Source: Pyrococcus kukulkanii (GTDB lineage: Archaea; Methanobacteriota_B; Thermococci; Thermococcales; Thermococcaceae). Taken from it: 64,000 nucleotides of DNA. The stretch spans positions 434,001-498,000 of the forward strand of contig NZ_CP010835.1 in the NCBI RefSeq assembly GCF_001577775.1, given 5' to 3'. This document shows positions 27,577-52,737 of the stretch, piece after piece. Every line of letters starts with the position of its first letter. The first letter of the stretch is position 1. The notes beneath the pieces are model-generated. The model was not told the origin of the DNA. It made no database searches and worked only from the letters and a program-made list of their open reading frames with translations. The position numbers and the translations under genes are program-made.

Positions 27577-27580
27577 GGTG

Positions 27581-29875
27581 ATGCTCTTCTCCAAAATATT
27601 TTCCTTTTTGAAAAGAGAACGAAAAGACAGAGAAGGAAAGAAGAAAGGAAATGAGCAGAGGAGAGAACGTAAGAAGGCTTTAACAAGTGCGACGTTAATA
27701 CTCATGCTATTAGTTAGCATCTATTCAGAACCTGTCGCGGCCTTGGATTTGAAATCCCTATTCAGTAAGTCCCCTGCAGGTTTTCTCTATAACTTCTGGA
27801 AAGGGTATTTCAGCACAGTGAAAAATAATGGACTTGGGGCAATAGCTGGAGCATGGGCTGGATGTAAGGTTGGAGGTGCGGTTGGAGCAGCAATTGGTTC
27901 CGTTGTCCCTGGAGTGGGAAATGCTGTTGGTGGAGCACTTGGGTGTATCGGAGGGGCAGTTGCTGGAGCATTTTTTGGGGCAAGTGCCGAACAGAAGCTA
28001 AAAGATAAGATAACAAATAGCAGGATATACAAGTGGATTTTTGGCAATAATGATAAAGAGAAGACAAGTTTATCAATTTTACAGCCAAGGAACATCTCAT
28101 ATAACGAGTATGCATCAAAGACCACCCTCCTTGAAGTATTCAACACAACATTTGTCAATATGAGTGAATTGCTACAAGCTGAAGCTAAGGATTTCCAAGA
28201 ACTAATGGCAAGGCTTGCCCCGAAAATCGGCGAGTATGACCTTGAAGAAGCAGATGGTAATGTTGGCGAATTTAAGAATGTGGAAATTGAAGGACCATAC
28301 AACATTTACGGCTTTAGTGCAATCCCAATCAAGTTCACCCTTTCTCCAAGAGGTAACGAGGAGGTAAAGGATCCAATATGCTTGACTAGTGTTTCTATAT
28401 ACGCATACACAAAGGACGGCAGGAAGCTTTGGACAAGAACATGGACATTTAAGCCCGGTGAGAAGTGTGGTGAGGAAGGGACAGTATGGTCATTTGAGAC
28501 TGTTCTAAAAGGGCCAGATCCTTATGTTAATGAGATTGATAAGATCATCAATGGGCTTGCTGATGCTGATACTGTTCAGAAACTCTACCTTGCAACTCCA
28601 GCTGACGAACCATATGAAATTGTTGCCGAGGTCCATGGGATAAGAATGATTTATTACAACAAAGGCGGACAGTGGATTTTTGACCACAATGAAACAATAT
28701 CTGCAAGATGGAGGACTTCTAGTGCATATAAACACCTTGCTGCTGGAAGGATTGAGATTGGTGGCTTTAGGGAAGGAACACTTCCAGTAGATATGAAAGA
28801 TGATCCTAAGGCAAGCATGTTTGTTCCGTATCTAATGAGAGGCTCAGGAGCTGCGTCGAACATAATAGTAAGGGCATGGGCAAATCCCCTCCACATTGTA
28901 AATGCAACATCAACATTCAAGTTCTACGTTGGAGCTAATACTAAATTCTTCGATGAGCTGATAAATGACTTTAAAGTCGAGATAAGCGATGAGTCAAGAA
29001 TTGTTGTTTATAGAATTCTAAAAGATGGCCATTGGGAGCTCGCAGCAACATTACCTATGAATGGATTAGCCTCTTTGGGGGACCTTAGAAGTCCAACGCA
29101 TTTAGAAGGAGCAGTAACGTACCATGAGTCATCAAATGTTGCCTCATATAGAGTGTTCTTTGCAATAAAGGCATATGTGAAGAGAGATGACGGAATAAAG
29201 ATTCCAATTTGGTTACTTATCGAACCAAACATTGCTGTAATGTCAAACGTTGGGAGGGTTGTAAGACTAGACCCAACGTTCAGGCAGATTGAGGATCTTA
29301 CAAGTGACAATGAATGGAGTGCCTATGATGCAGAGCAGGCAAGAGCTCTTGTTGATACCGTGATAAAGCAACTAAAAGACAAAATAGAAACGGCAGAATA
29401 TTGGATTGAGAGAGGGAGCCAGCTTGGGAATAAAGATGTCGTTGAATATGCAAAGAAGGCAAAAGAACATTATGAGGAGGCAATCCGCTATGCTGAGAAG
29501 ATAAAATCTGCAAACAACATAAACGACGTGATAAGGTATCTTGAGATAGTAAGAGATGAAGAGATTGCTGGAGATTATTATCTCGAAGCTGCAAGACAGG
29601 CAAGCTTCAACAACAAAGAGCAAGCAGAAACACTTGCTGAAACTGCAGAGAAGGTATCAAAAGTTGCAAACAAGTATAAAGGAGGAGTTGCAGCACTACC
29701 AATACCTACAGATTGGAGCGACATAAGAGAGCTTGTACCTTTCATCATAAGAATAGTAGTGTCTATTCTAGCAATTTACATTGCAAGACAACTCTTCGGA
29801 ACCGTTGGAGCTCTTGTTGTGGGGATAATAGTTGGACTATGGTGGGTAGGGCCAATGTTCGGGTTCCACTTATGA
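27581..29875 (+). CDS. Large membrane protein with glycine-zipper region
   Basis: 764 aa from the ATG at 27581 (a GTG one codon upstream is part of the GAGGTGAGG site). A strongly basic N-terminus precedes a membrane segment near residues 38-53. Residues 85-130 are a Gly/Ala-rich zipper with small-residue repeats, typical of helices that pack in membranes. A long mixed domain follows, then a helical/coiled-coil part at 580-700 and two C-terminal helices at 720-765. No family name can be given; probably a central envelope or transfer component. Confidence 0.68.
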   Translation: MLFSKIFSFLKRERKDREGKKKGNEQRRERKKALTSATLILMLLVSIYSEPVAALDLKSLFSKSPAGFLYNFWKGYFSTVKNNGLGAIAGAWAGCKVGGAVGAAIGSVVPGVGNAVGGALGCIGGAVAGAFFGASAEQKLKDKITNSRIYKWIFGNNDKEKTSLSILQPRNISYNEYASKTTLLEVFNTTFVNMSELLQAEAKDFQELMARLAPKIGEYDLEEADGNVGEFKNVEIEGPYNIYGFSAIPIKFTLSPRGNEEVKDPICLTSVSIYAYTKDGRKLWTRTWTFKPGEKCGEEGTVWSFETVLKGPDPYVNEIDKIINGLADADTVQKLYLATPADEPYEIVAEVHGIRMIYYNKGGQWIFDHNETISARWRTSSAYKHLAAGRIEIGGFREGTLPVDMKDDPKASMFVPYLMRGSGAASNIIVRAWANPLHIVNATSTFKFYVGANTKFFDELINDFKVEISDESRIVVYRILKDGHWELAATLPMNGLASLGDLRSPTHLEGAVTYHESSNVASYRVFFAIKAYVKRDDGIKIPIWLLIEPNIAVMSNVGRVVRLDPTFRQIEDLTSDNEWSAYDAEQARALVDTVIKQLKDKIETAEYWIERGSQLGNKDVVEYAKKAKEHYEEAIRYAEKIKSANNINDVIRYLEIVRDEEIAGDYYLEAARQASFNNKEQAETLAETAEKVSKVANKYKGGVAALPIPTDWSDIRELVPFIIRIVVSILAIYIARQLFGTVGALVVGIIVGLWWVGPMFGFHL

Positions 29876-29898
29876 TTTAACTTTTTGGAGGTGAGGGT

Positions 29899-30429
29899 AT
29901 GGGGGATAAGCAGGGTGTTGGTGAAAGAGCTGGCAACTACTTCCTCAACAAGATAGGGCTAAGACTAACCATAACTGGCATCATGGCCACAATTGCATGG
30001 TATGCTCAGGAAAAGAGTGTTAGTATAGCAGAATTCAATGCAGCTTATGCATCAATTCCCCTAACGGGGATAATGCTTGCAATGCTCTTTGACTATGGGC
30101 TCGATACTGGTAAACTCTACAACAGAATGCTCGGCAGAGGCAAAAGTCCACTTTCAAAGCTTGCTTTTGCCATAGGTGCAGTTGCAATGTTCTTCCTAGC
30201 ATTTACTTGGCTCTTAGCAGGGACAATCACGCTGAACTTCGCAACAATAACACCAGCAACGCTGATAGCATCAGCTTTTGTAGCCCTCATAATTCTTCTC
30301 CCACACACTGGTACAAGTGAATGGCTCCTATGGCTGTGGATAGCGGAGACAATAGTGACTGGAGGAGCTTACTTGACAATTCTGCCAGCAATTTCCCTGC
30401 TTATTGGAGCACTTTTGGGAGGTGTTTAA
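29899..30429 (+). CDS. Polytopic membrane protein, first of a tandem pair
   Basis: 176 aa with about five hydrophobic helices. The C-terminal half contains AGTITLNFATITPATLIASAF and LWIAETIVTGGAYL, which recur in the next gene, so the two are paralogues. It starts behind GGAGGTGAGG. No known family; lies between the glycine-zipper protein and its paralogue. Confidence 0.66.
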   Translation: MGDKQGVGERAGNYFLNKIGLRLTITGIMATIAWYAQEKSVSIAEFNAAYASIPLTGIMLAMLFDYGLDTGKLYNRMLGRGKSPLSKLAFAIGAVAMFFLAFTWLLAGTITLNFATITPATLIASAFVALIILLPHTGTSEWLLWLWIAETIVTGGAYLTILPAISLLIGALLGGV

Positions 30430-30430
30430 C

Positions 30431-30943
30431 ATGCAGGTACCAAAGAAATTAAACAATGTAAATTACCTGATAAAGCTTGTCCTCGTTGCATTCGTTGGGG
30501 GCTTTGTACTGAAATGGGCTACTGGTCAAAATATAACTATCAATCAATACGTTGAGGCTATTGCCTCAACACCAATTTATGTGATTATAGCAATAGAAAT
30601 CCTAGATAAACTATCAGACAAAGTTGATTACGAATTCTTGGGCTTTGCTTACGGATCAAAGTTCGGAATTAACAGAGTACTCATGAGTTTAATCATTGCA
30701 GGAATTGGATTTGCTGCAGTCCTATACTTCATGGCTGGCACAATAACATTCACAGTAGAAGCCTACAATACCGGAGTACTGTTAGCAGCGGCAACCTATG
30801 CATTATACATAGTAGCTCCAGAAACCGGCGATGATGAGCTAATTTTGTTCTTGTGGTTAGCCGCAACAGTTGCCACGGGAGGAGCTTACCTGTCTAAAGC
30901 ATTTAGCTTGCCCCTTGCTCATTTAATACTTCTTACGAGGTGA
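30431..30943 (+). CDS. Polytopic membrane protein, second of a tandem pair
   Basis: 170 aa from the ATG at 30431, which is 6 nt after GGAGGTG; a start at 30404 would lie in the previous gene. About five hydrophobic helices. AGTITFTVEAYNTGVLLAAATYAL and LWLAATVATGGAYLS align with the preceding protein at the same distance from the C-terminus. An acidic PETGDDE loop matches PHTGTSE there. Function unknown. Confidence 0.66.
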   Translation: MQVPKKLNNVNYLIKLVLVAFVGGFVLKWATGQNITINQYVEAIASTPIYVIIAIEILDKLSDKVDYEFLGFAYGSKFGINRVLMSLIIAGIGFAAVLYFMAGTITFTVEAYNTGVLLAAATYALYIVAPETGDDELILFLWLAATVATGGAYLSKAFSLPLAHLILLTR

Positions 30944-30949
30944 TCAACA

Positions 30950-31288
30950 ATGCTTGGCAGGATTGCAGTAGCTCTCATCGCCTACCTCCTCTGCATTTTC
31001 CATTTCCAGGATAGCGTGATTACTGTGGGTAAACTCTTGGGACTCTCGGGCTTTTGGGCACTATTTGTGCCCTCGACAATTGTAGGGCTCAGCATTTACA
31101 GAATAGCTGACTTAGACAATTGGGGAATTTGGGATGCAATAAGCCTACTCTCCCTCGGAACAATAGCAATGCTCGCAATAACCAGTAATCCAACTGCAAC
31201 TGTCTATGAACTAATCAAGGGAGTTGTTAGCTTCTCAGTAGCCGCTATTCTGGCAGCATTAACAATCAAAGGGGGTAGGAGGGCATGA
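30950..31288 (+). CDS. Small membrane protein of the envelope module
   Basis: 112 aa, about four hydrophobic helices and short loops, ending KGGRRA. No family recognised. It overlaps the next gene by 4 nt (ATGA) within the co-directional operon. Confidence 0.62.
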   Translation: MLGRIAVALIAYLLCIFHFQDSVITVGKLLGLSGFWALFVPSTIVGLSIYRIADLDNWGIWDAISLLSLGTIAMLAITSNPTATVYELIKGVVSFSVAAILAALTIKGGRRA

Positions 31289-31527
31289 ATACTAGCGAGA
31301 TTATCACCCAACTTCAGAATTTTGCAACACAACACCCCTACATTGCCCTTGGAGCAATACTCCTCCTCATAGGAGCCCTAATCAGAGGAAAAACAGCATT
31401 TGTATTTTACATACTTGGGGCCCTTGCATTGATTAAAGCGTTTGGATTATTCGATACTTTCGTTTCTTTCCTAAAACAAGTCCCTGGAATGATTAAAGAC
31501 CTAGCAAGCGTATTTGGGGGTGGTTAG
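31285..31527 (+). CDS. Small two-helix membrane protein
   Basis: 80 aa with two hydrophobic segments (residues 20-34 and 39-60) and an amphipathic C-terminus ending in GGG. Such short proteins occur repeatedly in archaeal virion membranes and secretion systems, but no family is identified. The stop is directly followed by the ATG of the next gene. Confidence 0.6.
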   Translation: MNTSEIITQLQNFATQHPYIALGAILLLIGALIRGKTAFVFYILGALALIKAFGLFDTFVSFLKQVPGMIKDLASVFGGG

Positions 31528-32304
31528 ATGAGGAAGAAGGAAAGGTTGTACGTAACATTTGGTTTAGTCCTGATATTTGCCGCCATAGCCTGGTATGCAT
31601 ACAATGGCTTCCATGGGGGCGGCTTTGTAGACTTGAGTAACATCCTGAAGAACAGCACCAACGAGACTGAAAGCTACAAGCTCGCAATCAGCGATCTTAG
31701 TGCTTCAGTAGATCAGGAAACTGGACATGTGATAGTCAGCTTCAAGCTTGCTAATGAAGAGCACTTCAACATCTCTAGTGTCCAAGTCCTATACGCACTC
31801 AACGTTGCCGATCCAAAGAATGCAACTTACCAAGAACTCAATGCCAACAAGGACAATGAAACCTACAAGGCCGAAATACCAAGTGCATTTGGAGATCTTG
31901 TTTACTACAAGGTCAAGGTTACTTATGACGGCAACAAGACGCTTGAGAGCGACGTAAAGAGCATAACCGTGAAAGACACTACCGCTCCAACAATACAAAA
32001 TATAACAGTCAGTTATAATGCCACTGATGGCAACGTTACCTTCACGATAGCAGCGCTTGACAATGATGCCCTGGACAAGGTAATCCTCTACTATGCAATA
32101 AACCCAACCGAGAACACTACATTCTCCAACATAACTCTAACAGTGAGCCCATACGAGGTCAGAATTCCAGTAAGCCAGAACGATACCATAGTATTCTATG
32201 TTGAGGCCATTGACTTATCAGGAAACAAAGCCAGACTTCCAGGAGAAGGCTACTATGAGTTCCTGGCAAATGAAACTAAGGAATTAGTATTCCAGGAGGG
32301 CTGA
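31528..32304 (+). CDS. Membrane-anchored beta-sandwich protein, glycosylation-rich
   Basis: 258 aa: an N-terminal anchor (residues 8-25), then two Ig/fibronectin-like domains (about 45-145 and 150-245; the second begins DTTAPTIQNITVSYNATDGNVTF). More than ten Asn-x-Ser/Thr sequons suggest heavy N-glycosylation outside the cell. Probably an exposed structural protein of the envelope module. Confidence 0.68.
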   Translation: MRKKERLYVTFGLVLIFAAIAWYAYNGFHGGGFVDLSNILKNSTNETESYKLAISDLSASVDQETGHVIVSFKLANEEHFNISSVQVLYALNVADPKNATYQELNANKDNETYKAEIPSAFGDLVYYKVKVTYDGNKTLESDVKSITVKDTTAPTIQNITVSYNATDGNVTFTIAALDNDALDKVILYYAINPTENTTFSNITLTVSPYEVRIPVSQNDTIVFYVEAIDLSGNKARLPGEGYYEFLANETKELVFQEG

Positions 32305-32309
32305 ACCTG

Positions 32310-32789
32310 ATGAGGCCCTCCTCCTCAACTCCCTCTTTTGCCAAAGTTATTCTGAGAATCTTCATCTTGGTAATAATAGTCATGTTAGGATACCAAGTGC
32401 ATGCAGTCAATAAGCCAGACCCAATCAGGGAGAGATTATATGAGCTTGGATATCCAGACGAAGGCTTCATATTCAGCAATAACACCATAAGATGGTCTGA
32501 TGGCCACCTAACAATCCTGGAGGGTGACTACATAGAGGATTACCCCATTACGGCCACCCAAGCTTATGAGATCCTGAGAAACTACCTCGCTGATTATAAC
32601 CAGAAACTCAAGGAGCATGACATGAGGATAGAGCCAGATCCAAAGTCCTTATCTGAAAAGGAAGAAGATGACAACTACTATTGGGTTTTTGAGGTTTATG
32701 TTTATTCAGGCTCAAGCAAGTTCTTCGCTGGCCTTGCCTACGTGAATAGGCGGACTGGAGCTGTTAAAATCAAGGGGTTACTCGATTAG
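32310..32789 (+). CDS. Membrane-anchored protein with PepSY-like domain
   Basis: 159 aa: one membrane helix at residues 12-32, then a soluble part. Residues 80-157 resemble a PepSY fold (ITATQAYEILRNYL helix, YYWVFEVYVYSG strand, AYVNRRTGAVKIKG end). PepSY domains can inhibit peptidases or bind cell-wall partners, but the role here is unknown. It lies 5 nt after the preceding gene. Confidence 0.6.
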   Translation: MRPSSSTPSFAKVILRIFILVIIVMLGYQVHAVNKPDPIRERLYELGYPDEGFIFSNNTIRWSDGHLTILEGDYIEDYPITATQAYEILRNYLADYNQKLKEHDMRIEPDPKSLSEKEEDDNYYWVFEVYVYSGSSKFFAGLAYVNRRTGAVKIKGLLD

Positions 32790-32802
32790 GAGGTGAGTTT
32801 CT

Positions 32803-33252
32803 ATGAAAAGGATCCTTGCATTAATACTCATATTAGGTATTATTATGGGCGGGGTCGGCTGCATCCAGAAGGAGGGTAACGCCATAATACTTAGCTTTGG
32901 CAACGAAACCTACACCTTCACCCTCCCCGAGAACCTGACCAATACAACAACTCAAACCCAAACCCCCACCACGTACACTTATGAGAAGAGAGTTGAAGCT
33001 GGAAAGATTTTAGTCATCGAGGATCCAAGGATTGAAATCAAAGTTGACTATGAGATCAATAAGGGCAAGTTCGTCTTCTTTGTAACTTACAACAATCAGA
33101 CAAATCACTATTACGAGCCCATGGACATCGAGATCCAGGGAATAAAAATTCATGGGGAAGGCTATTGGGTTGGAACCTCCCTCTACATTGCAACCATTAA
33201 AATCGAGAGTCCAAGAGAACTCTCCTTCTCAGTCAAGGAGGTGAGCCAATGA
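32803..33252 (+). CDS. Putative lipoprotein
   Basis: 149 aa. A signal peptide ends in a lipobox-like GGVGC, so Cys20 could be lipidated. A Thr-rich linker (TNTTTQTQTPTT) precedes a beta-rich domain. Sits on the outer face of the membrane. No family recognised. Overlaps the next start by 4 nt. Confidence 0.65.
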   Translation: MKRILALILILGIIMGGVGCIQKEGNAIILSFGNETYTFTLPENLTNTTTQTQTPTTYTYEKRVEAGKILVIEDPRIEIKVDYEINKGKFVFFVTYNNQTNHYYEPMDIEIQGIKIHGEGYWVGTSLYIATIKIESPRELSFSVKEVSQ

Positions 33253-34025
33253 AACGCCTTCTCCCAATACTCCTTATTATTCTACTAAGCACTCCAGGAT
33301 TTGCTTACTATTCCTGGACTGGCACGGTAGATCCTGGAACAATACTCTATGTTGGCAACCTAACAGTAAAGGTAGATCGAGAAGTCTCAGGAAACAGGAG
33401 CATACTAAGCATTGGGGATACCTATGTCATGGAAGGGCAGAAAAAGACTATACAAGAGCTAACTTTCGAAGTTAAAACCTTCAACAACAAGACTTACGTC
33501 CTTATAACATCAGAAAAGCCATTCGAGGTTAAGTTTTCCAAAGCCACTCTTATTACAGAGAAATTAAAGAAGCAGGTTGAAGAGCTGAAAGCAGAGTTAG
33601 AAAGTGCCAACAAGAAAATAAAAGCACTACAAGATGAGAATGCAAGGCTAAAAAGAAGGCTAAGCGAGTTAGAAAAGCAGAAGCAGACGGCAGACGTGAG
33701 TAAGCTAAAAAGACAGATAGCAAACCTAACGAGAGAAAATAGAGCACTAAGGGAACAAATCGCTAACTTAACCGAGAGAATAAATGCGCTCTTAGGAGAG
33801 AATGAGTTTCTCAAGCAGCAGAATTCAGAATACAAGAAGCTGATCAGCTCGCTTTTAAAAGAACAAGCACAAAGAAGCGAGCAAGACTACTTAGAGAAGG
33901 CGAAAAGAGAGAAGCTCATTGGCTCTATTCTCCTGAAGAGCTTAGTCTTTTCCCTAATGATAGTCATCACAGCAGGTTATTTGCTCTACAGAGCAAAGAG
34001 AAGTTACGAATATGGAGGGCTCTGA
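33249..34025 (+). CDS. Secreted coiled-coil protein with C-terminal membrane anchor
   Basis: 258 aa: signal peptide (residues 1-19), beta-rich head (20-95), continuous coiled coil (about 100-215) and a membrane helix at 228-246. A stalk of about 15 nm with a head outside the membrane is implied. It is the last gene of the envelope operon; about 165 bp follow before the ATPase, including an AT-rich TATA-like segment near 34075-34085. Confidence 0.68.
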   Translation: MKRLLPILLIILLSTPGFAYYSWTGTVDPGTILYVGNLTVKVDREVSGNRSILSIGDTYVMEGQKKTIQELTFEVKTFNNKTYVLITSEKPFEVKFSKATLITEKLKKQVEELKAELESANKKIKALQDENARLKRRLSELEKQKQTADVSKLKRQIANLTRENRALREQIANLTERINALLGENEFLKQQNSEYKKLISSLLKEQAQRSEQDYLEKAKREKLIGSILLKSLVFSLMIVITAGYLLYRAKRSYEYGGL

Positions 34026-34191
34026 AAAATGTATTGTGCGAAAGCAGCAATATTTTGTTTTAAAATTAAATCGTACACTATATAACAACTCTATTCAATG
34101 AAAGAAGCTATGAAACGGGCGTAATTTGTTATAAGTCAAGAATAAGCTGAAATCAAGGTGTTCGTGAAAAGCAGGCGGAGGTGTGGGTTAG

Positions 34192-35493
34192 TTGGGAGTA
34201 GAAATCTACATAGGGAAGAATTCAGAAAAAGAAAAGAGGTATATTGAGTTGAAGGAAAATGAGGCCAACCACATTACTTTTCTCGGCCCAAGTGGAAGTG
34301 GCAAGACCACAGTAATGAGGGCCCTAGCAGAAGAGATATTCGAAAAAGTCCCTGGAGCCCTAGTAATAGTAGTAGAGCAGAAATTCGACAAGAACAAGGT
34401 GAAAGACCTCAATGACTTCATTAAAAAAGTGGCAAGAGTAAAGGGCAGGGACTATGTGAAAGAGAAGTATGGAGAAGTTCTCAACTACCTAATAAAAGTT
34501 GCAAACGACGGAATAAAATACGGGAAAATGGGAGACTTCGCCTTCGGCTGGCCAAACTACCCCTTCTCAATAATTCCAGCATCAGAGAATGACAAACACA
34601 GCATCCTAAGCTACCACGGATTACACCCAAAGAAGTTTCCAGTAAAAAGAATAGTCTTCAGGCCAGTGAGAGATATAGATGCAATCGAGAGAGACAACAA
34701 CTGCGAAGTTGTAGAGGGCAAAATAAGGTACAAAGACATAGACTTCTCATTCATCGAAAAAATCGCTCAAATAAACAGGAATACAATCTACGGGAGAATC
34801 ATTAGGCAAGCATGGGATCTCGAAGGGCTAAGGGATCCAAAACTGCTTGAGAATTTTGCCGAAGAGTGGGAGAGAAAATACCGCCCAAACTCCAACAGCC
34901 CAAGCACAACATACCTATCAATAATGGAAGTAGCCGAGTTATTGAAAAAGGACCGACTGCTAAACAAGGACAAAGATTTTACCTCAGAGCTAACAACTGA
35001 CAAAATAATCGTCATAGACTTCTCTGCAAACAGCGAGCTCTATGGCGAAGAGGAAGCCTGGATAATCAAACACTTAGTTGACTACATAGTAACAAAGTTT
35101 GTCCGCTTCAGGAACACGCCAGTATTCATGCTCTTTGATGAGATCCAAAACATCCTCCAGTACCACTATGGAAGGCTTGCAATCGAGAAACTACATAGAG
35201 AAGGCAGATCCAATTGGGTAAACATAATCGCAGGAACACAATACATGTACGGCCTACCAGCCTTCCTAATCTATGGTGCAGCACACATAGGAATAGTTGG
35301 AAGAATAGCAAGTGCAGACGACGAAGCCCTGTTAAGCAAGGTCATAAGGGATTTTCACAGGATAAAAGAGCCAAGAGCTAAGACTTTTGATGATTATAGA
35401 AAGCTCAAGCCACAACTAAAAGGTAGAGGCTGGTTCTCCTTTGATAAAATGTATACTGAAAGAATGTATTTTCGCCCTCCACAAAGCCTGTGA
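34192..35493 (+). CDS. HerA/VirB4-like P-loop ATPase
   Basis: 433 aa, TTG start 8 nt after GGAGGTG. Walker A is LGPSGSGKTT (residues 31-40), the Walker B region is PVFMLFDEIQNIL (near 310) and a C-terminal sensor-like segment is AGTQYMYGLP. It belongs to the HerA/FtsK/VirB4 superfamily, whose members pump DNA or drive assembly and secretion. Next to a membrane/secreted module it most likely powers DNA packaging or transfer; genome segregation is an alternative. No membrane helix of its own is seen. Confidence 0.82.
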   Translation: MGVEIYIGKNSEKEKRYIELKENEANHITFLGPSGSGKTTVMRALAEEIFEKVPGALVIVVEQKFDKNKVKDLNDFIKKVARVKGRDYVKEKYGEVLNYLIKVANDGIKYGKMGDFAFGWPNYPFSIIPASENDKHSILSYHGLHPKKFPVKRIVFRPVRDIDAIERDNNCEVVEGKIRYKDIDFSFIEKIAQINRNTIYGRIIRQAWDLEGLRDPKLLENFAEEWERKYRPNSNSPSTTYLSIMEVAELLKKDRLLNKDKDFTSELTTDKIIVIDFSANSELYGEEEAWIIKHLVDYIVTKFVRFRNTPVFMLFDEIQNILQYHYGRLAIEKLHREGRSNWVNIIAGTQYMYGLPAFLIYGAAHIGIVGRIASADDEALLSKVIRDFHRIKEPRAKTFDDYRKLKPQLKGRGWFSFDKMYTERMYFRPPQSL

Positions 35494-35502
35494 GGTGATT
35501 TT

Positions 35503-36207
35503 ATGTTCGGGTTCTTAAAAAGGAAGAAAAAGAAGAACGAGCTTGTGGAAAACCTCCCCAAAGCCGTTGAAGATGTGGAGACGATACCAATTGTTGAGGA
35601 CTACGTTTTTGAGAGGGCCAGGAAGCTTAGAGAAATCAATTACAAATCCGCCCAAGTCTTCGAGCCAAAGCAAAAACTCCTCATATGGTTCAACGGGAAA
35701 GAAAGCAAGATAATAGGCTACCCAAGAGGCCTAAGGGTAGATCTAAATGACTACCTAATCCTATACCAAGTCCGCCCACCAAGCTGGCTTGACAGTGTTA
35801 CTTACTCCCTACTAAGGATCCTTGGAAAGCACCCTCCCTTGGCGGTCATTAGGGCCCCAAAAGAGATAGTGAAGTTTGGAGATGAGATAATAACAATCCT
35901 GGCGCATGCCTTCATAATAAATGAATTCCAAGAATACGAGGCAGTGCCACTCTCGCATGACGTTGTTGATGCAAAGCTGTACCTTGCATTGAAGAAAGAG
36001 AATGACATGCTTTGGGATCTCATAGAGATCCTAAGGCACAGGGTTCCAGAAGTTGTTGAGGATGCCATGAAGATGAACCCAAGAATAAAGACCTACATGA
36101 GCACAAAGAGCAAGGACGAAGTTGAGGGAACACAGAGCGAGAAGTTTGGAGGAGTTGAAGTAGAGTTTAGCGATCCATTCACCCGCTTCAGAGGGATCAA
36201 GCTATGA
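35503..36207 (+). CDS. Unknown protein, partner of the element ATPase
   Basis: 234 aa with a lysine-rich N-terminus (FGFLKRKKKKNE) and a mixed alpha/beta body; no membrane helix. It is 10 nt after the ATPase and overlaps the next gene by 4 nt, so the three form one unit. No family recognised; a cytoplasmic adaptor for the ATPase is a reasonable guess. Confidence 0.62.
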   Translation: MFGFLKRKKKKNELVENLPKAVEDVETIPIVEDYVFERARKLREINYKSAQVFEPKQKLLIWFNGKESKIIGYPRGLRVDLNDYLILYQVRPPSWLDSVTYSLLRILGKHPPLAVIRAPKEIVKFGDEIITILAHAFIINEFQEYEAVPLSHDVVDAKLYLALKKENDMLWDLIEILRHRVPEVVEDAMKMNPRIKTYMSTKSKDEVEGTQSEKFGGVEVEFSDPFTRFRGIKL

Positions 36208-42568: not shown

Positions 42569-42629
42569 ATGGACACTAACAAAGAACAGGGAAAAGAAAC
42601 AAGAGAACCATTAGCGAAGTTTCAGGCTA
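42557..42629 (+). repeat. 73-bp direct repeat, copy 1 (5' end of abrB-like gene)
   Basis: Identical over 73 bp to 47690-47762. It covers the ribosome site GGCGGTGAG, the ATG and the first 20 codons (MDTNKEQGKETREPLAKFQA). The sequences differ at once on both sides. The copies bracket 5.1 kb and are in the same orientation. Confidence 0.95.
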
Positions 42630-47400: not shown

Positions 47401-47701
47401 AAATGTTATCCCTTAATCCATAGTAAGGCGATCATACATAATTATCAATTTGGGATAACACCTAATAATCCTCTAGGATGTACTCTTTCCTATTTAAATA
47501 ATTTTCGGACGTAATTATTACCCCTATTTATCGTGTTAGAATTTTACTCCTCTAGCTCGGCTTTTCTAGCCAGACGCTAAAACATAAACTAATCAAGTAA
47601 TTCAAATGTCACAATCCCAATAACCTTATGAGGGTCAAACCCCACATATAACCAAAACCTGTAAATGATAACAGAAATTGGTTATAATGGGCGGTGAGCA
47701 C
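47401..47701. promoter_or_regulatory. Intergenic control region with two inverted repeats
   Basis: About 300 bp between the divergent 397-aa gene and the second abrB gene. TGTTATCCC (47404-47412) pairs with GGGATAACA (47452-47460) just upstream of the leftward gene. TATAACC (near 47647) pairs with GGTTATA (near 47680) just before the abrB start. Both are placed as operators would be; no protein gene is seen. Confidence 0.45.
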
Positions 47702-47762
47702 ATGGACACTAACAAAGAACAGGGAAAAGAAACAAGAGAACCATTAGCGAAGTTTCAGGCTA
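47690..47762 (+). repeat. 73-bp direct repeat, copy 2 (5' end of abrB gene)
   Basis: Identical to 42557-42629. Here the repeat leads into a complete two-domain AbrB protein, so this is probably the parental context. Confidence 0.95.
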
Positions 47763-48076
47763 GGATAGATAGAGATGGAAGGCTAATTATCCCGAGGTAC
47801 ATCAGAGATGCCTTGAATATCGAACAGGGCGATTATGTCAAGATAATACTAAGAAAAATCAATGTAAACCTTGAGGAAAGGACTATATATGTACTTAACC
47901 AGGCTCAGGTAATTTCAAAAGTTGGAAGAAAAGGAGCAGTTCACATCCCAAATGACCTTAGGAGGGACTTAAACATTCAGCCAGATGAACTTGTTGAGGT
48001 TATACTACTTGACTTCTACAAGAGAAAAGTTCCTGATGAAAACACTCAATTCAAGTATGTTTTTTTGAACGTTTAA
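47702..48076 (+). CDS. AbrB/SpoVT-type regulator with two domains
   Basis: 124 aa from the ATG at 47702. Two swapped-hairpin units are visible: residues 20-48 (FQARIDRDGRLIIPRYIRDALNIEQGDYV) and 78-110 (AQVISKVGRKGAVHIPNDLRRDLNIQPDELVEV). Tandem AbrB domains in one chain are common in archaea. Probably a DNA-binding regulator of the element. It shares its first 20 codons with the truncated gene at 42569. Confidence 0.8.
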   Translation: MDTNKEQGKETREPLAKFQARIDRDGRLIIPRYIRDALNIEQGDYVKIILRKINVNLEERTIYVLNQAQVISKVGRKGAVHIPNDLRRDLNIQPDELVEVILLDFYKRKVPDENTQFKYVFLNV

Positions 48077-48231
48077 TATATACATGTATATATTAATTCG
48101 AGAAAAAGAAGAAAGAAGAAAGTATTTTGCCAATGTTTTCTTCCCTCAGACAGGCGATTTTTTGCGAAGTTAATTCATGTATCCAAAAATTCAAGCTGAT
48201 TTAACTGCCTAAAGTAATGCATATTTTGTAG

Positions 48232-48258
48232 AAAAAAGCCCTCTGAAGGGTTTTTATT
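48232..48258 (+). terminator. Hairpin plus T-run
   Basis: AAAAAGCCCT-CTGA-AGGGTTTTT forms a short stem extended by A/T pairs and is followed by TATTTTT. It lies 155 bp after the abrB gene and may end its transcript. Confidence 0.45.
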
Positions 48259-48393
48259 TTTGTTCATCCTATTACGCTAAAAAGTTGTATATCGGACTTG
48301 ATGAAATTATCTTGCCTAATAGTGTTTGTTCTGATTTTGTGTATCCAAAAATTTGAGCAATTATGTTCATTATGCAACAAGTTTGACTACAAC

Positions 48394-48409
48394 AAAGCTT
48401 ATAAGCTTT
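48394..48409 (+). promoter_or_regulatory. Promoter TATA element of the right-hand module
   Basis: AAAGCTTATAAGCTTT is a perfect 16-bp palindrome centred on CTTATAAG. It lies about 25-30 bp upstream of the tandem operators, where a TATA box is expected. Confidence 0.55.
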
Positions 48410-48423
48410 CCTTCCGTATGGTT

Positions 48424-48461
48424 TATGGAACTAAGTTCCATATATGGTCTTTAGTTCCATA
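48424..48461. promoter_or_regulatory. Two abutting 19-bp palindromic operators
   Basis: TATGGAACTAAGTTCCATA (48424-48442) is a perfect dyad with a one-base centre. TATGGTCTTTAGTTCCATA (48443-48461) follows without a gap and keeps both outer TATGG/CCATA arms. They cover the expected transcription start and end 17 bp before the gene for an RHH-like protein. Cooperative autorepression is the simple reading. Confidence 0.8.
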
Positions 48462-48478
48462 ATTTCAAGGTGATGAAA

Positions 48479-48640
48479 ATGGCAAGGAGAAGGAAATATG
48501 AGGCAATAAGGCGCGTTGAATTCTTACTTCCTCCAGATAGAGTTGCTGAGATGGAAAAAGCCAAAGGAAAGAAGTCCTGGGGCGAATTTATTTGGGAACT
48601 CTGGACGTTTTGGAAAAGCCACTTTAGGAACGGTGTCTAA
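48479..48640 (+). CDS. Small RHH-like regulator (53 aa)
   Basis: Starts MARRRKYEAIRRVEFLLPPD at 48479 behind AAGGTGATG. A basic N-terminus and beta strand (RRVEFLLP) precede a short helix and a Trp-rich C-terminal helix (WGEFIWELWTFWKSHF). It is the first gene after the tandem palindromes, which fits a dimeric RHH autorepressor. Below usual gene-length cut-offs, but well positioned. Confidence 0.68.
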   Translation: MARRRKYEAIRRVEFLLPPDRVAEMEKAKGKKSWGEFIWELWTFWKSHFRNGV

Positions 48641-48641
48641 A

Positions 48642-49337
48642 ATGAGGTATAGCAGGCGCCCTGGGCCAGGAAGGCCTCGAAAGTATGGAGAGGATCTAAA
48701 GAAACTTCAAGCCCATGTACCTGAATCTACTTATGACGCCTTATATGAGATGAAAGAGACTCTTGGAGTTTCATTACCTGAGCTTCTCACATGGCTCGTT
48801 AGGTTGGCAAAGGGGAACATTGAAAAATTGAAAATTCTGGCTCAGTACACACACCTTAGGGAGTATATATCTAAACTTGAGAAAAAGTATTCTGAGCTTG
48901 AGGCTAAGTTTCTGAAGCTTCAGGATGATTATGAGAGGGTTTTGAAAGAGCGTGATGCTCTTCGCGAGGAAGTGAAGGCTCTGAAGGCCGAGCTGGCTGA
49001 ACTCAAGAGACAGCTAAAGATGAGTGCAAGAGAGCGCCAGGCTGAGGATCTCAGGCTCGAAATCTACGAAATCCTCGACAAGTATGGTAGAGATGGCAGT
49101 ATAAAGATGTTAGATCTTCTCAAGAGGCTTGGTTATTCTGGTGATTACTTGAGGCATGCTAAGGAGTTCCTGGAGCGCTGGTTTGTAGATCAGGGCAGGA
49201 TTCTAGTCTCTGAGGAGTTGGGGCTTGTAGTTGAGAAGGATTTGAGGTTTAGGGAGCTCGGTTGGATTGTTAGGGTTGCAAAACGGGATGAGGAGAAATT
49301 TCGCTCATCAGGAATAACTGAGGGGGTGGTTGCATGA
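48642..49337 (+). CDS. DNA-binding coiled-coil protein with AT-hook-like N-terminus
   Basis: 231 aa from the ATG at 48642, one base after the preceding stop. The N-terminus RRPGPGRPRKYGE contains an AT-hook core GRPRKYG, then a short helical segment (ESTYDALYEMKETLGVSLPELLTWLVRLA) of RHH-like type. A coiled coil covers residues about 75-145, and a C-terminal winged-helix-like part (SIKMLDLLKRLGYSGDYLRHAKEFLERW) follows. It may be the DNA-binding core of the element's replication or partition system. Confidence 0.62.
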   Translation: MRYSRRPGPGRPRKYGEDLKKLQAHVPESTYDALYEMKETLGVSLPELLTWLVRLAKGNIEKLKILAQYTHLREYISKLEKKYSELEAKFLKLQDDYERVLKERDALREEVKALKAELAELKRQLKMSARERQAEDLRLEIYEILDKYGRDGSIKMLDLLKRLGYSGDYLRHAKEFLERWFVDQGRILVSEELGLVVEKDLRFRELGWIVRVAKRDEEKFRSSGITEGVVA

Positions 49338-49804
49338 CTGAGGTTGTGGCGGTTGTATTGACGGACATTGGAAGCTGGAGAAAAGGGGATTATATCTCTT
49401 TGGATATTGAAAGCTTCAGGGAGCTTTTCAAGAAGGGTGTCGTTGATTTTGCGAATTTGAGTGATTTCATTAATGAAGTGGCAAAGCTAAGGTATTTGGA
49501 GGCTAAATCTACTGAGTTGCAGGAGCTTGAGGATGACTTCTATGAGAAAGTCAAGCTTGTTGAGGAAGTTTTGTTGGCAAGGGCTAGGAGGGCTGATGCT
49601 TATGCCTTGGACACTCTTGGCAGGTTTAGGCTTCATGTTAGGAAGCTCAAGATGACTCGTTTAGAGAAGATCTTCTATGCTGCTCTCATCAGGCCAAATA
49701 GTCTCGAAATCGAGAATAAGCTAACAAAAGAGGAGAGGGTGTTCTATAGGAGGTGGAGTGAGGAGTTACGCGGATTTCTCGATGGGGGTGTTGTGAATGA
49801 GTGA
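49334..49804 (+). CDS. GINS-like protein (Gins23 architecture)
   Basis: 156 aa. The first 40 residues form a small beta domain ending GDYISLDIESFRELFKKGVVDFA, like the GINS B-domain. The rest is helical with ELEDDFYEKVKLVEE, LHVRKLKMTRLEKIFYAALIRP and LTKEERVFYRRW, matching the GINS A-domain (FYE motif, R-x-x-K-I helix, L-T-x-E-E helix). B before A is the order of archaeal Gins23/eukaryotic Psf2-Psf3. A mobile-element copy could recruit or replace host GINS at the MCM helicase. Overlaps the upstream gene by ATGA. Confidence 0.62.
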   Translation: MTEVVAVVLTDIGSWRKGDYISLDIESFRELFKKGVVDFANLSDFINEVAKLRYLEAKSTELQELEDDFYEKVKLVEEVLLARARRADAYALDTLGRFRLHVRKLKMTRLEKIFYAALIRPNSLEIENKLTKEERVFYRRWSEELRGFLDGGVVNE

Positions 49805-50027
49805 GGCTGAGTTTTAGGAGTGGGTTGCTCGGGAGATTAGGGCTGAGAGGCTTGAGGAGGGTAGGAGGGCGGTTGTGGAGTTGCTTGAGAGGGAGGTCAG
49901 GAATGCTGAGAGGTTCAAGTGGCGCTTCCTCAGTGAGGGGAACACTGAATCCTTCAACTATTGGGAGGGGTTTGAGGACGGGGTTAGACTCGCATTAAAC
50001 CTACTCAGAAAATTCGGGGTGGTTTGA
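49797..50027 (+). pseudogene. Small acidic/basic helical protein with in-frame TAG at codon 7
   Basis: The ATG at 49797 overlaps the GINS-like stop. The frame reads MSEAEF, then TAG (49815-49817), then continues EWVAREIRAERLEEGRRAVVELLERE and ends GVV at 50027, directly before the next ATG: 77 codons in all. The uninterrupted helical sequence and exact fit between neighbours show this is the coding frame. Downstream GTG/TTG starts could yield a shorter protein. Another open frame here (Arg/Gly-rich) is not believed. Confidence 0.55.
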
Positions 50028-50351
50028 ATGCCTGTTTACGTGGTTGAGGCTAATGAAGTCTGGCTTGTTGAGGCTGAGGATGCTATGGAAGCCATTGATG
50101 CATATCTCATGAAGAAGCTTGCTGAAGCACTCTTGGAAGGCAGGGATGCTGAGATTGGGGGTGAGGTTACTGCAACCCTCCTCCCCCTCCACCCCCACCA
50201 TTTACGTCTAATGTACGAGAATATTGGGAGGGTGGAAAAGGCTAAGGATGTCATGAGGTGGGCTAGGAGGGTGTGGGAGGAGAAGAGGAGGGAATTCTTG
50301 ATGAAAAAACAGGAGAAACAACTCACTCTTGCGGAAGTGGGGGTGGTGTGA
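50028..50351 (+). CDS. Unknown small protein
   Basis: 107 aa: an N-terminal strand/helix unit (VVEANEVWLVEAEDAMEAIDAYLMKKLAEALLEG), a Leu/His-rich turn and a basic C-terminal helix. No family recognised. Stop overlaps the next start (GTGATGG). Confidence 0.58.
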   Translation: MPVYVVEANEVWLVEAEDAMEAIDAYLMKKLAEALLEGRDAEIGGEVTATLLPLHPHHLRLMYENIGRVEKAKDVMRWARRVWEEKRREFLMKKQEKQLTLAEVGVV

Positions 50352-50872
50352 TGGTTTCTCGGGTTTCGATGATTAGGCAGGCGGTTCGTTATGGCCCCTC
50401 CATCTACAAACCCTTCTTTGATTACATGAAGAGGGAGGTAAAGTCGGCTGAGAACAGGTACCTCTTCAGTAGTCTTGTTGAACAGTTATTCCCTGGCAAG
50501 TTCGCCCTCTATGATCTGGATTCAATAATCTTTGACAAGGAGTCTAATACTCCCATTGCAGCTTTTGAATTGAAGTTCAAGAGTTGGTTTACTGCGGAGG
50601 AGGCTTGGTTGAACAAGGAGTTGGAGGTTAATGGCAGGCAGTTCCTCAGGCTCAGGATCCTAGCAAGGAGGATGGAAATTCCAATCTACTACTTCGTACA
50701 AGTTGGGAAGTACTTCGTCATGTTCAACGTCCTCAGGGTAGGTTATGAGTTGGAGGAGAGGCACGAGGGCCCTGCAAAGGACTTGTATGCCATCATAAAC
50801 TTGGATGACGCAATTGTATCAAGATCCCTGGAGGACCTGAAGACTGATCTTTCACTACTTCTAAGGTGGTGA
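50351..50872 (+). CDS. PD-(D/E)XK nuclease-like protein
   Basis: 173 aa from the ATG at 50351. A conserved-looking Glu helix (SAENRYLFSSLVEQLFPG), then LYDLDSIIFDKESNTPIAAFELKFKSW, gives Asp and E-x-K at nuclease-fold spacing; a further helix carries QFLRLRILARRME. This resembles archaeal resolvase/RecB-type nucleases. Position in the replication-like module suggests DNA processing. Length is close to Hjc/Hje resolvases, but their other motifs are not clear. Confidence 0.62.
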   Translation: MVSRVSMIRQAVRYGPSIYKPFFDYMKREVKSAENRYLFSSLVEQLFPGKFALYDLDSIIFDKESNTPIAAFELKFKSWFTAEEAWLNKELEVNGRQFLRLRILARRMEIPIYYFVQVGKYFVMFNVLRVGYELEERHEGPAKDLYAIINLDDAIVSRSLEDLKTDLSLLLRW

Positions 50873-50874
50873 AA

Positions 50875-51066
50875 ATGAAACTGATCAAGAGGGTTGTTGT
50901 GGTGGTTGAGACGGTGGATGGGGAGAAAAGAACGGTGTTGGAGCATGATGGGGAGGTTAGGCTCAGGGATTTGAAGTATAGAGAACTCGACATGTTTGAT
51001 ATTGCCCTAAGACTACACAGGCTCTCAAAAGAGGCAATGGAACTACAGTTTAGCATGGAGGGGTGA
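50875..51066 (+). CDS. Unknown small protein (63 aa)
   Basis: Starts MKLIKRVVVVVETVDGEKRTVLEHDGE at 50875 after GGTGGTG. A beta hairpin precedes a helical C-terminus. No family recognised. Part of the tightly packed operon. Confidence 0.55.
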   Translation: MKLIKRVVVVVETVDGEKRTVLEHDGEVRLRDLKYRELDMFDIALRLHRLSKEAMELQFSMEG

Positions 51067-51068
51067 AA

Positions 51069-51335
51069 ATGGGTTGGTGGGTCTTTGTTATTGCAAGGAA
51101 GGAGGTCAAGGATGGGAGGGAGATAGAGAGGCTTGAGAGGAAAGTCAAGGAGCTCTTTGGGAACGATTGTAAGTTCATTGTTTCAACAAGGAGCGCTGAT
51201 GGAAGGCAATCTCATGTTGATGCGAGGCTGGTTGAAGCAACATACGAGGCAGTGCGTTTCATTGACGTGTTGAACGATAAATTAGACAGACTCTACGATA
51301 AACTCTTCGAGGAGCGTGAGGGTGGTGAACATTGA
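51069..51335 (+). CDS. Unknown small protein ending in EREGG-type tail
   Basis: 88 aa from the ATG at 51069 behind GGAGGGGTG. Starts MGWWVFVIARKEVKD and is mainly helical; ends EEREGGEH. The tail is encoded by the repeated junction GGAGCGTGAGGGTGGTGA that also starts the next gene. Confidence 0.55.
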   Translation: MGWWVFVIARKEVKDGREIERLERKVKELFGNDCKFIVSTRSADGRQSHVDARLVEATYEAVRFIDVLNDKLDRLYDKLFEEREGGEH

Positions 51336-51540
51336 CGCTTTACTCTTGACTATGTTTAAGGTTGTAGGGGCATTTACACTTACTGGTCTTATAGCATGGT
51401 TGGGTATTGAAGCATGGCTGGAGTTCTTTGACAAGACAAAGACGGCACGTATGATCAAGGAGTTCATTAGGGAGAATAGGGGGTATGTTGAGGAGTGGTT
51501 CTTGAAAAAGTATGGAGAGGAGCGTGAGGGCGGTGAGTGA
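51325..51540 (+). CDS. Small protein with one membrane helix, GTG start
   Basis: About 71 aa; I start it at the GTG at 51325 inside the junction repeat, by analogy with the next two genes. A membrane helix covers residues 8-28, then a charged tail ending EEREGGE. No ATG is available until residue 10. Function unknown. Confidence 0.5.
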   Translation: MNIDALLLTMFKVVGAFTLTGLIAWLGIEAWLEFFDKTKTARMIKEFIRENRGYVEEWFLKKYGEEREGGE

Positions 51541-51721
51541 GGAGAAAGAATATATTGTGTTTACAAAGGAGGGCATTCCTTTCAGACTGCAAGCATATAA
51601 CATAGATCAAGCAAGAGGCTTGGCCGAGGAGCTTTGTAGTGAGATGGGATTGCACGTGCATAGTATTCTAGAATGCAAAAAGGAGCGTGAGGGTGGTGGT
51701 TCAGAAGACTCTCTTTCCTGA
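51533..51721 (+). CDS. Unknown small protein, GTG start
   Basis: 62 aa from a GTG at 51533 (MSEEKEYIVFTKEGIPF). A short strand and helix (AYNIDQARGLAEELCSEMG) are followed by a tail KEREGGGS encoded by the third copy of the junction repeat. No family recognised. Confidence 0.52.
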   Translation: MSEEKEYIVFTKEGIPFRLQAYNIDQARGLAEELCSEMGLHVHSILECKKEREGGGSEDSLS

Positions 51722-51851
51722 ATATGTTATTGAGCTTCAGAAGCTTGATAAGAAGCTCTCAAAGCTTGAGCGTAAAGTGTTGTCGTTGAGTTCAGAGTTT
51801 AAGATGCTTGATCATGAAGTAAATATGCTGAGGGTGGTGAACCATGAATAA
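51696..51851 (+). CDS. Small coiled-coil protein (51 aa)
   Basis: GTG start at 51693 or 51696 in the third junction repeat. Reads VQKTLFPEYVIELQKLDKKLSK, then a leucine heptad pattern to NHE. Overlaps the next ATG by 8 nt. Probably oligomeric; function unknown. Confidence 0.5.
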   Translation: MVQKTLFPEYVIELQKLDKKLSKLERKVLSLSSEFKMLDHEVNMLRVVNHE

Positions 51852-52020
51852 TAACACCACCCGTATATTATCCATCTTTCCAAATTCTTTCCCTTGGGTA
51901 AGCAACCTTACATGCAGGAAACCCGCCGATAATATACAAGACCTGTTACTATGGAAGGCTGCATCTTGGAGGACCTCCTTGGGGAAATATACAAGTGTGG
52001 GAGAATTAGTATATGGGTGA
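51844..52020 (+). CDS. Possible small protein (58 aa)
   Basis: Starts MNNNTTRILSIFPNSFPW at 51844 behind GAGGGTGGTG, a good ribosome site. Composition is unlike a known family, and support is only its start signal and operon position. It ends 6 nt before the winged-helix gene. Confidence 0.4.
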   Translation: MNNNTTRILSIFPNSFPWVSNLTCRKPADNIQDLLLWKAASWRTSLGKYTSVGELVYG

Positions 52021-52026
52021 TGTATA

Positions 52027-52380
52027 ATGCCAAGGCGGAGAAAGATCCCTGGAGAGGTTATGATGAAGATTCCAACTATGGCTCCACCAGATACTGCCTT
52101 GGAATTGCTGTTTGAGGGTAAGACCTTGGAGATCGCCAGGAAGGTTGTTGAGTACTTGAAGAAGAACAAGGCCCTCTGGAAGGATGAATATGAAGAAGCA
52201 CTTGGGATATCGGGAAGTGATAGGATTCTGTATTTTAGAGTCATAAGAAAGATGCTTGCAGCGGGTATGATTTACGAGGACAGGGGGACATACAGATTAA
52301 GCAAAAAGTTTGCTGAAAGAATGGAAAACCTAGCAAAACTCTGGCTCTTCGAGATCGGGAAGGTCGAAGAAATCTGGTGA
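52027..52380 (+). CDS. Winged-helix DNA-binding protein
   Basis: 117 aa. Residues 35-95 form a winged HTH (ARKVVEYLKKNKALWKDEYEEAL, DRILYFRVIRKMLAAGMIYEDRGTYRLSKKF). A basic N-terminus (PRRRKIPGE) may add DNA contacts. Last gene before int(N); may control integrase expression or copy number. Confidence 0.68.
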   Translation: MPRRRKIPGEVMMKIPTMAPPDTALELLFEGKTLEIARKVVEYLKKNKALWKDEYEEALGISGSDRILYFRVIRKMLAAGMIYEDRGTYRLSKKFAERMENLAKLWLFEIGKVEEIW

Positions 52381-52444: not shown

Positions 52445-52726
52445 ATGCGCAAAATACACAAAATACACACTAATGAAAGAGGCAAGCATAGAGGAGATTC
52501 AGCCAAAAGGAGGAGAAAGAGACGGCTTAATATCATGGTTGATTGGGAAGTGGGCGAGGCGCTGGATAAACTGTACCTCAACAAATCTAGATTTATTAAT
52601 GATCTCCTTAGAAGCGTCCTGTTTGGGGAGGGAAGCATTATGGAAGTTCAAAATAGAATTTGGTGGACCGGGCGGGATTTGAACCCGCGGCCTCCGCCTT
52701 GCGAGGGCGGCGCTCTCCCAGGCTGA
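52445..52726 (+). CDS. SSV-type integrase, N-terminal fragment int(N)
   Basis: 93 codons. Begins MRKIHKIHTNERGKHRGD, then an RHH-like segment (LNIMVDWEVGEALDKLYLNKSRFINDLLRSVLFG) and the tRNA-encoded GRDLNPRPPPCEG up to 52708. The last residues beyond the core are host tRNA. Joined to the left fragment at the core it regenerates an integrase of about 364 codons in phase. An N-terminal RHH region fits SSV-type enzymes. Confidence 0.82.
   Translation: MRKIHKIHTNERGKHRGDSAKRRRKRRLNIMVDWEVGEALDKLYLNKSRFINDLLRSVLFGEGSIMEVQNRIWWTGRDLNPRPPPCEGGALPG
52607..52708 (+). repeat. Right attachment region
   Basis: Partner of 22321-22422. The 48-bp core 52661-52708 lies in the complete tRNA-Ala gene. The left 54 bp are coding sequence of int(N). 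Integration preserved an intact tRNA at this side. Confidence 0.92.
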
Positions 52727-52737
52727 GCTACCGGCCC
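52661..52737 (-). tRNA. tRNA-Ala(CGC)
   Basis: 77 nt with encoded CCA. Reverse strand reads GGGCCGGTAGCTCAGCC..., acceptor GGGCCGG/CCGGTCC with one G-U pair, anticodon loop CTCGCAA giving CGC, and T arm GCGGGTTCAAATCCCGC. It is the integration target, and its 3' 48 nt are duplicated at 22375-22422. Confidence 0.95.

Follow-up and report, generated by a model that had tools for sequence, protein, structure and literature searches.

A CC protein and a plasmid-borne Gins23 paralogue occupy the replication-protein position of an integrated pT26-2 family element in Pyrococcus kukulkanii

How does a plasmid start its replication when none of its genes encodes a recognised replication protein (Rep)? 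The question is raised by an element integrated in the chromosome of the archaeon Pyrococcus kukulkanii NCB100, which lies within a stretch of 64,000 nucleotides (bases 434001–498000 of the 1,977,126-bp genome; hereafter the window, whose numbering is used throughout). Because its position between attachment (att) sites, 22318–52708 with a window offset of 434,000, coincides with the coordinates 456,321–486,708 tabulated for PkuNCB100_IP1, for which a tRNA-Ala target and a 102-bp att are also given (Badel 2019, PMC6972569, Table 2), the element is this published member of the pT26-2 plasmid family, integrated in tRNA-Ala. Table 3 of that paper has '-' as its replication entry and lists a recognised Rep for 15 of 29 family members, hence a non-defining trait, and the members without one are suggested there to use a novel Rep or to have lost replication. 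A first-pass annotation of the window had suggested a possible uncharacterised replication system at 48479–52380, with the initiator among its genes if the element replicates autonomously. We find that the module is real and combines replication with integration, but that it is not a lone system and recurs in many elements of a known family. The likeliest initiator, judged from the position of its gene and the linkage of its N-domain to the candidate origin, appears to be the CC protein, which joins an AT-hook/ribbon-helix-helix (RHH) N-domain to a coiled coil and a C-domain resembling a winged helix-turn-helix (wHTH). On balance we favour a reading in which CC would be an initiator that binds the intergenic gap between the AbrB and RHH genes, and the adjoining Gins23 would bring the host MCM.

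The main new evidence is the position of CC and Gins23. Related elements have a common order, AbrB – gap – RHH – slot – Y – PD-(D/E)XK – wHTH – integrase, and the free plasmids pGE2 (NZ_MN477947) and pT26-2 (GU056179) read AbrB – gap – RHH – t26-22p – small genes – PD-(D/E)XK. The window element reads AbrB – gap – RHH – CC – Gins23 – Y – 107 aa – PD-(D/E)XK – wHTH117 – intN, so that CC and Gins23 stand where t26-22p stands. In all, 58 fetched loci, the window and pGE2 were annotated with profiles built for this analysis. The tally of slot contents was anchored on a PD-(D/E)XK search of 94 Thermococcaceae genomes, which avoids choosing loci by CC; the 34 PD-(D/E)XK rows with E below 1e-40 were used and 11 weaker rows left out. 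The slot holds CC in 25 of these modules (one, L100, cut by the contig start), t26-22p in three (G044:500424, G063 and G036) and a long MCM of 884–929 residues in three more (G042, G044:84441 and G114; loci L109 (11237), L114 (9415) and L115 (8434)); two slots meet a contig end (G067:C118, G104:C26) and one has no such gene. All 31 readable filled slots contain exactly one of CC, t26-22p and long MCM and never two, which puts CC in the Rep position and makes it mutually exclusive with the other Reps.

Matched by coordinates, eight of the ten Thermococcales members listed without a Rep in Table 3 of Badel 2019 (PMC6972569) carry CC: PchGC74_IP1 (L063), PHV1 (L064), PyaCH1_IP16 (L077), PkuNCB100_IP1 (the window), TliDSM5473_IP1 (L084), TguDSM11113_IP1 (L069), TGV1 (L105) and TKV2 (L082). 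Element names were assigned to loci by position, and two Rep-less members (TbaCH5_IP1, TspJCM11816_IP1) were not located. Gins23 is also present in PchGC74_IP1, PHV1 and PkuNCB100_IP1. As to whether such members use a novel Rep or no longer replicate, comparison of the slots points to a specific gene in eight of ten cases; if the reading is true, most Thermococcales pT26-2 members now listed without a replication protein would be explained. The element at the coordinates of PspNA2_IP1 has a 672-aa MCM, lacking the usual N-terminal extension, directly after CC and in the place of Gins23. CC modules are found, too, in genomes that lack the pT26-2 core ATPase (G022, G049, G068, G075, G092), and the module is therefore not confined to the pT26-2 family. 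The first ~230 residues of the long MCM proteins (L109, L114, L115) precede the MCM homology. A module remnant in G025 (L112, about 1180362–1182500) retains AbrB, PD-(D/E)XK, wHTH and an integrase end around an empty slot.

The gene after CC, called GINS-like at first pass, is on sequence comparison a true Gins23 homologue. It matches Thermococcus kodakarensis Gins23 (3ANW chain B) over residues 6–143 at E=6.7e-14, against E=1.3 for the Gins51 chain; the similarity is full-length, covering the N-terminal B-domain and C-terminal A-domain, and the RPxS and EExxxY positions are kept. The NCBIfam Gins23 match (E=4.7e-13) reaches 49 bits of a cutoff of 120 and, because this is below the equivalog cutoff, we treat the plasmid protein as a paralogue and not an orthologue. 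It differs from archaeal Gins23 in being plasmid-encoded without a plasmid Gins51, and is 26–29% identical to three chromosomal Thermococcaceae copies; identity to chromosomal copies is 27–36% for at most four of the five plasmid copies. The host chromosome keeps its own Gins23 at 647957. Across the class, 92 of 115 genomes have a Gins23-like match, mostly a single chromosomal copy, and an extra one beside CC is found in five: the window genome, G026 (87% identical), G027 (60%), G113 (37%) and G078. It lies directly after CC with overlapping ends in four modules and after Y in G113. The window and G026 copies give a dN/dS of 0.13, indicating purifying selection, under which the PD-(D/E)XK and CC genes likewise stand. 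We do not claim that GINS is exclusive to CC modules, since CC is in 30 of the 38 annotated modules and five of five is not significant, nor that the plasmid copies form a single clade (support 51/79, long branches, 13 chromosomal copies in the tree, one strand). Two further candidates for plasmid copies were rejected, G086:C82 being Gins51 and G108:C1:248490 a TPR protein. PHROG phrog_35510, a viral family of unknown function, resembles plasmid Gins23 weakly over the full length (E=9e-5 with the G078 copy) and is possibly a virus-encoded GINS.

In the mainly open literature we found no earlier account of a plasmid or virus GINS; the term has 0 occurrences in the available text of PMC6972569 and 0 in the main text of PMC12934983. 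A figure legend in a 2014 review (PMC3984812) already gives two GINS23 homologues for P. horikoshii, with no link to PHV1 there. Against the authors' response in Makarova 2012 (PMC3307487), which states that no viral genome had until then been found to encode GINS, a mobile element with GINS in the replication slot is now seen in at least five Thermococcaceae genomes.

The structure of CC bears on what it may bind. Common to CC proteins are an N-domain of AT-hook and/or RHH type and a coiled coil, and they end in a C-domain of type A (wHTH-like, as in the window), B or C; types B and C are interrelated (hhalign 99.9%) and have no detectable relation to A beyond the coiled coil. The window protein contains GPGRPRK, which we take to be the AT-hook core, together with a weak RHH_1 match (E=0.011), and its model has a coiled coil at about residues 60–160 followed by a C-terminal helix and three strands (mean pLDDT 64; residues 179–231 below 50). 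Profile comparison links the family of the neighbouring 53-aa RHH-type protein to the RHH-type N-domains found in CC proteins (hhalign probability 88.5), and the window member probably binds the palindromes just upstream of its gene. Compared with G026, the window CC is unrelated up to about 48870 and then 85–100% identical across the coiled coil and C-domain; compared with G031 (L075), the window is 96% identical over 47690–48774, that is AbrB, the gap, RHH and the N-domain. The break falls within the coiled coil. Among 27 loci (L090, L081, L086, L087 and L121, lone or near-duplicate, and loci without AbrB within 1500 nt were left out), N-domain similarity tracks AbrB (r 0.72) and the DNA just after AbrB (r 0.64; 0.78 for N-domain DNA), each with a permutation p of 0.0005, the minimum with 2000 shuffles. 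Between the N- and C-domains of one gene there is hardly any correlation (r 0.12; DNA 0.07), though AbrB is ~490 nt away. CC proteins are therefore chimeric, with the N-domain inherited together with AbrB and the upstream intergenic DNA and the C-domain separately, and such covariation would be expected of a recognition domain and its cognate DNA.

The upstream DNA in question, the AbrB–RHH gap, is a candidate origin or operator region. The published pT26-2 origin lies between AbrB (t26-20) and RHH (t26-21), which is the equivalent gap (PMC6972569). In the window the gap can be aligned over its length with those of five other elements (six in all), some with other C-domains; the palindrome after AbrB, an A-rich block and TGTATCCAAAAATT are kept, and the second copy of TGTATCCAAAAATT is invariant in six of six. 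The 27 upstream regions contain 11 perfect palindromes with 9-nt arms, whereas 200 dinucleotide shuffles gave a mean of 0.3 and at most 3. The detrended GC-skew minimum is at 47660 in the window element and at 5848 in pGE2, inside the equivalent gap; that of pT26-2 is at 16719, inside t26-22, and gene orientation confounds GC skew.

In the mechanism that we propose, the AT-hook/RHH N-domain of CC would recognise the gap as origin, the coiled coil would oligomerise the protein and the C-domain with its partner would act on the replisome, while the plasmid Gins23 would pair with host Gins51 and deliver or activate host MCM (and primase) at the plasmid origin; a helicase or polymerase of the plasmid's own would then be unnecessary. 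Gins23 is proposed as the recruiter because of its homology, its gene coupling and the 672-aa MCM in the equivalent place of the PspNA2_IP1-like element. Archaeal Gins23 characteristically assembles with Gins51 into a 2:2 tetramer and binds MCM, as the plasmid copy would be expected to do. The RHH and AbrB proteins would regulate copy number or expression, the PD-(D/E)XK protein would resolve junctions and the 117-aa wHTH would serve the integrase, probably controlling integration and excision. Iteron and other modular plasmid initiators are specific origin binders whose DNA-binding part travels with its cognate DNA and which recruit the host helicase; CC has no homology to them and would resemble them in its mode of action, with the difference that recruitment through GINS would be archaeal/eukaryotic in logic. 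By analogy with Sulfolobus, where primase contacts MCM via GINS23 (PMC3984812), such a contact is a plausible route for recruitment. More tentatively, and at somewhat less than an even chance, these elements may represent a new class of archaeal replicon, in which a domain-swapping CC initiator and a plasmid GINS would assemble the host Cdc45–MCM–GINS (CMG) helicase at their own origin, by-passing Orc1/Cdc6, with no plasmid helicase, primase or polymerase. If replication can indeed be started by GINS delivery, this would offer a simple system for archaeal/eukaryotic CMG assembly and a compact replicon for hyperthermophile vectors.

Two published systems of Thermococcales mobile genetic elements can be compared. 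Those with an MCM that carries an N-terminal DNA-binding extension (PMC12934983) use the same slot and fuse the DNA-binding and CMG parts which are here two coupled genes; they differ in that CC and the extension share no sequence homology and that GINS rather than MCM is supplied in the window element. In some 'Yamaviridae' an RHH-domain helical protein replaces MCM, and PAV1 has a DUF7845-wHTH protein (PMC12934983). Both are, like CC, non-enzymatic DNA-binding proteins in a replication locus, and functional substitution is argued from position by those authors too; the main text has no GINS there, and the RHH protein is likened to CC by description only. A 546-aa DUF7845-wHTH protein like that of PAV1 is found on G031:C8 (L124; 16,557 bases), a 16,480-bp circle with a 77-nt end overlap, pT26-2 core genes and no integrase, of which it may be the replication protein. 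This contig was considered as a free CC plasmid and rejected, having no CC. Profile comparison detected no homology of CC to t26-22p or to the MCM extension, and on this ground we rejected the idea that CC is an MCM extension that became detached or a fragment of t26-22p.

That lack of homology is one of several points that weigh against CC as an initiator and Gins23 as its recruiter. The wHTH and RHH folds of CC depend on weak matches and a low-confidence model; the single-sequence model of Gins23 is poor (pLDDT 50), its top Foldseek matches, both archaeal GINS, having TM-scores of 0.40 and 0.35. Most CC modules lack Gins23, which CC therefore does not require. Neither CC (types A and B) nor Gins23 matched any record in the plasmid collection, and the elements may have ceased to replicate and persist as integrated remnants. 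Of the two findings that the first-pass annotation would have counted against itself, a recognised Rep elsewhere on the element was not found, but the two free relatives inspected, pGE2 and pT26-2, carry t26-22p instead of CC and GINS. Covariation of the N-domain with upstream DNA would equally be expected of an autoregulatory repressor with its operator, and linkage contributes to it. CC could accordingly be a transcriptional regulator or a partition (segregation) protein with Gins23 as a passenger, Rep having been lost and the element surviving by integration only, in line with the loss of replication suggested for Rep-less members (Badel 2019, PMC6972569) and with the empty module in G025. 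We hold this to be unlikely, though not far-fetched, because an additional regulator would have no need to exclude t26-22p and long MCM from the slot, and because PD-(D/E)XK, GINS and CC are under purifying selection. An excised form is also implied for one CC-only element, that of G058, which makes up contig C4 and is bounded by a 44-nt att. Contig C2 ends 83 nt inside this element and C3 starts 83 nt before its end, the overlaps being 127 each, and joining the ends of C4 gives an uninterrupted integrase. Since such breaks in a k=127 graph need attP junction reads (the assembler being assumed), an excised circle probably existed, which bears on excision and not on replication.

The divergence of Gins23 from the host copy and its dispensability in most CC modules would also suit a host-takeover factor that poisons or diverts the host CMG helicase for the element without acting at the plasmid origin. 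This is improbable in our view, given that in the four modules where Gins23 directly follows CC its translation is coupled to that of the slot protein, and that MCM takes the place of Gins23 in another element. According to the title of Gehring 2017, T. kodakarensis can replicate without Cdc6 and an origin, and the host might likewise copy the excised circle by recombination-dependent or origin-independent replication, leaving the module for integration, excision and regulation. We give this very little credence, as free relatives retain a dedicated Rep or MCM in the slot. The reading with CC as initiator and Gins23 as recruiter remains the one we prefer.

Within the module (Table 1), every gene named at first pass (RHH, AT-hook/coiled-coil/wHTH, GINS-like, PD-(D/E)XK-like, tiny proteins and wHTH) was found in its place, and the description as a tightly overlapping operon holds, CC and GINS sharing 4 nt and the 107-aa and PD-(D/E)XK genes 1 nt. 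The limits drawn then were too narrow: on the left the module should take in AbrB (47678) and the ~400-nt gap that precedes RHH, and on the right it should reach the N-terminal half of the split integrase (52445). The search for the initiator narrows to CC: AbrB, Y, PD-(D/E)XK and wHTH117 are accessory, because they are also present beside t26-22p or MCM, and the variable replication part is CC only, with Gins23 optional. The PD-(D/E)XK protein matches the PHROG 'Holliday junction resolvase' at E=1.7e-37 and has the D...(E/D)xK motif; D57, E73, K75 and Q97 are the same in all 18 members aligned. No relative of CC, Gins23 or PD-(D/E)XK was found in viral contigs; Gins23 had no match in the phage collection except a chance-level Streptomyces phage row (E=0.6), and the PHROG family of the 117-aa wHTH was not found in phage records by tblastn. 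A scan of further genome contigs gave a single CC locus.

Table 1. Features of the element and its replication-and-integration module (window positions).
Feature	Position	Strand	Remarks
Left att copy (105-nt direct repeat)	22318..22422		inside C-terminal integrase half; 96% identical to 52604-52708
C-terminal part, SSV-type (type I) tyrosine integrase	22312..23253	+	PF16795 E=4.6e-49; pGE2 integrase homologue, 418 bits
pT26-2 family core region (T26-6p-like protein, membrane proteins, HerA-like ATPase)	25657..36207	+	
HerA-like ATPase	34192-35493		pGE2 counterpart match 870 bits
AbrB/MazE-type DNA-binding protein, upstream module border	47678..48076	+	PF04014 E=2.7e-14; homologues at equivalent place in related loci
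Perfect 24-nt palindrome	48073-48096		
Candidate replication origin / operator region, AbrB-RHH gap (~400 nt)	48077..48478	.	
Direct repeat TGTATCCAAAAATT	48178, 48340		
Tandem palindromes	48423-48462		
RHH-type protein, 53 aa	48479..48640	+	no Pfam match
CC protein, 231 aa (AT-hook/RHH N-domain, coiled coil, wHTH-like C-domain)	48642..49337	+	Rep slot
Plasmid Gins23 paralogue, 156 aa	49334..49804	+	
Y protein, 50 aa (about 73-145 aa elsewhere)	49875..50027	+	kept after slot with all slot types
107-aa protein common to pGE2	50028..50351	+	62 bits; DNA match to pGE2 too
PD-(D/E)XK nuclease, Holliday-junction-resolvase-like	50351..50872	+	accessory; also in free plasmids
Five small open reading frames (66, 90, 74, 69, 54 aa)	50866..51851	+	no homologue among matches listed for compared loci
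117-aa wHTH protein adjoining integrase	52027..52380	+	PHROG 'transcriptional regulator' E=2.9e-51
N-terminal part of split integrase	52445..52726	+	
Right att copy	52604..52708		overlaps tRNA-Ala (52661-52737, -)

The remainder of the element is typical of its family, the pT26-2 plasmid family reportedly being that of Soler 2010. Twelve window proteins between 25657 and 36207 match pGE2 proteins with gene order kept, the core genes including the HerA-like ATPase (the family is defined by seven) and the T26-6p Pfam domains at 27578–29875; the type I (SSV-like) integrase is split through integration in the tRNA gene. The tRNA target and the order AbrB – origin gap – RHH – Rep slot – PD-(D/E)XK are likewise shared, and the difference lies in the Rep slot, filled by CC and Gins23 in place of t26-22p or MCM. 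The first-pass statement that the element has no known Rep, polymerase, MCM or Orc1 is borne out by a Pfam scan of its open reading frames (ORFs) other than w25300, w30431, w30950, w43188 and a few shorter ones, and matches Table 3 of Badel 2019 (PMC6972569); t26-22p is absent from the window genome, and no MCM or MCM-like protein was found in the scanned ORFs. A coiled-coil protein at 44174–44719 has a weak HeH/LEM (SAP-like) match, and several related elements have homologues of ~345 aa immediately before AbrB. A second AbrB-like gene, truncated (42569, 82 aa), lies upstream of the module and is marked by a 125-nt repeat, 84% identical, at 42557–42681 and 47690–47814. The element also has a weak match to an Mrr-like restriction endonuclease at 36525–37664, and the chromosome just to its left (18352–21452) encodes a McrBC-like AAA+ protein with a partner gene, recognised by eye.

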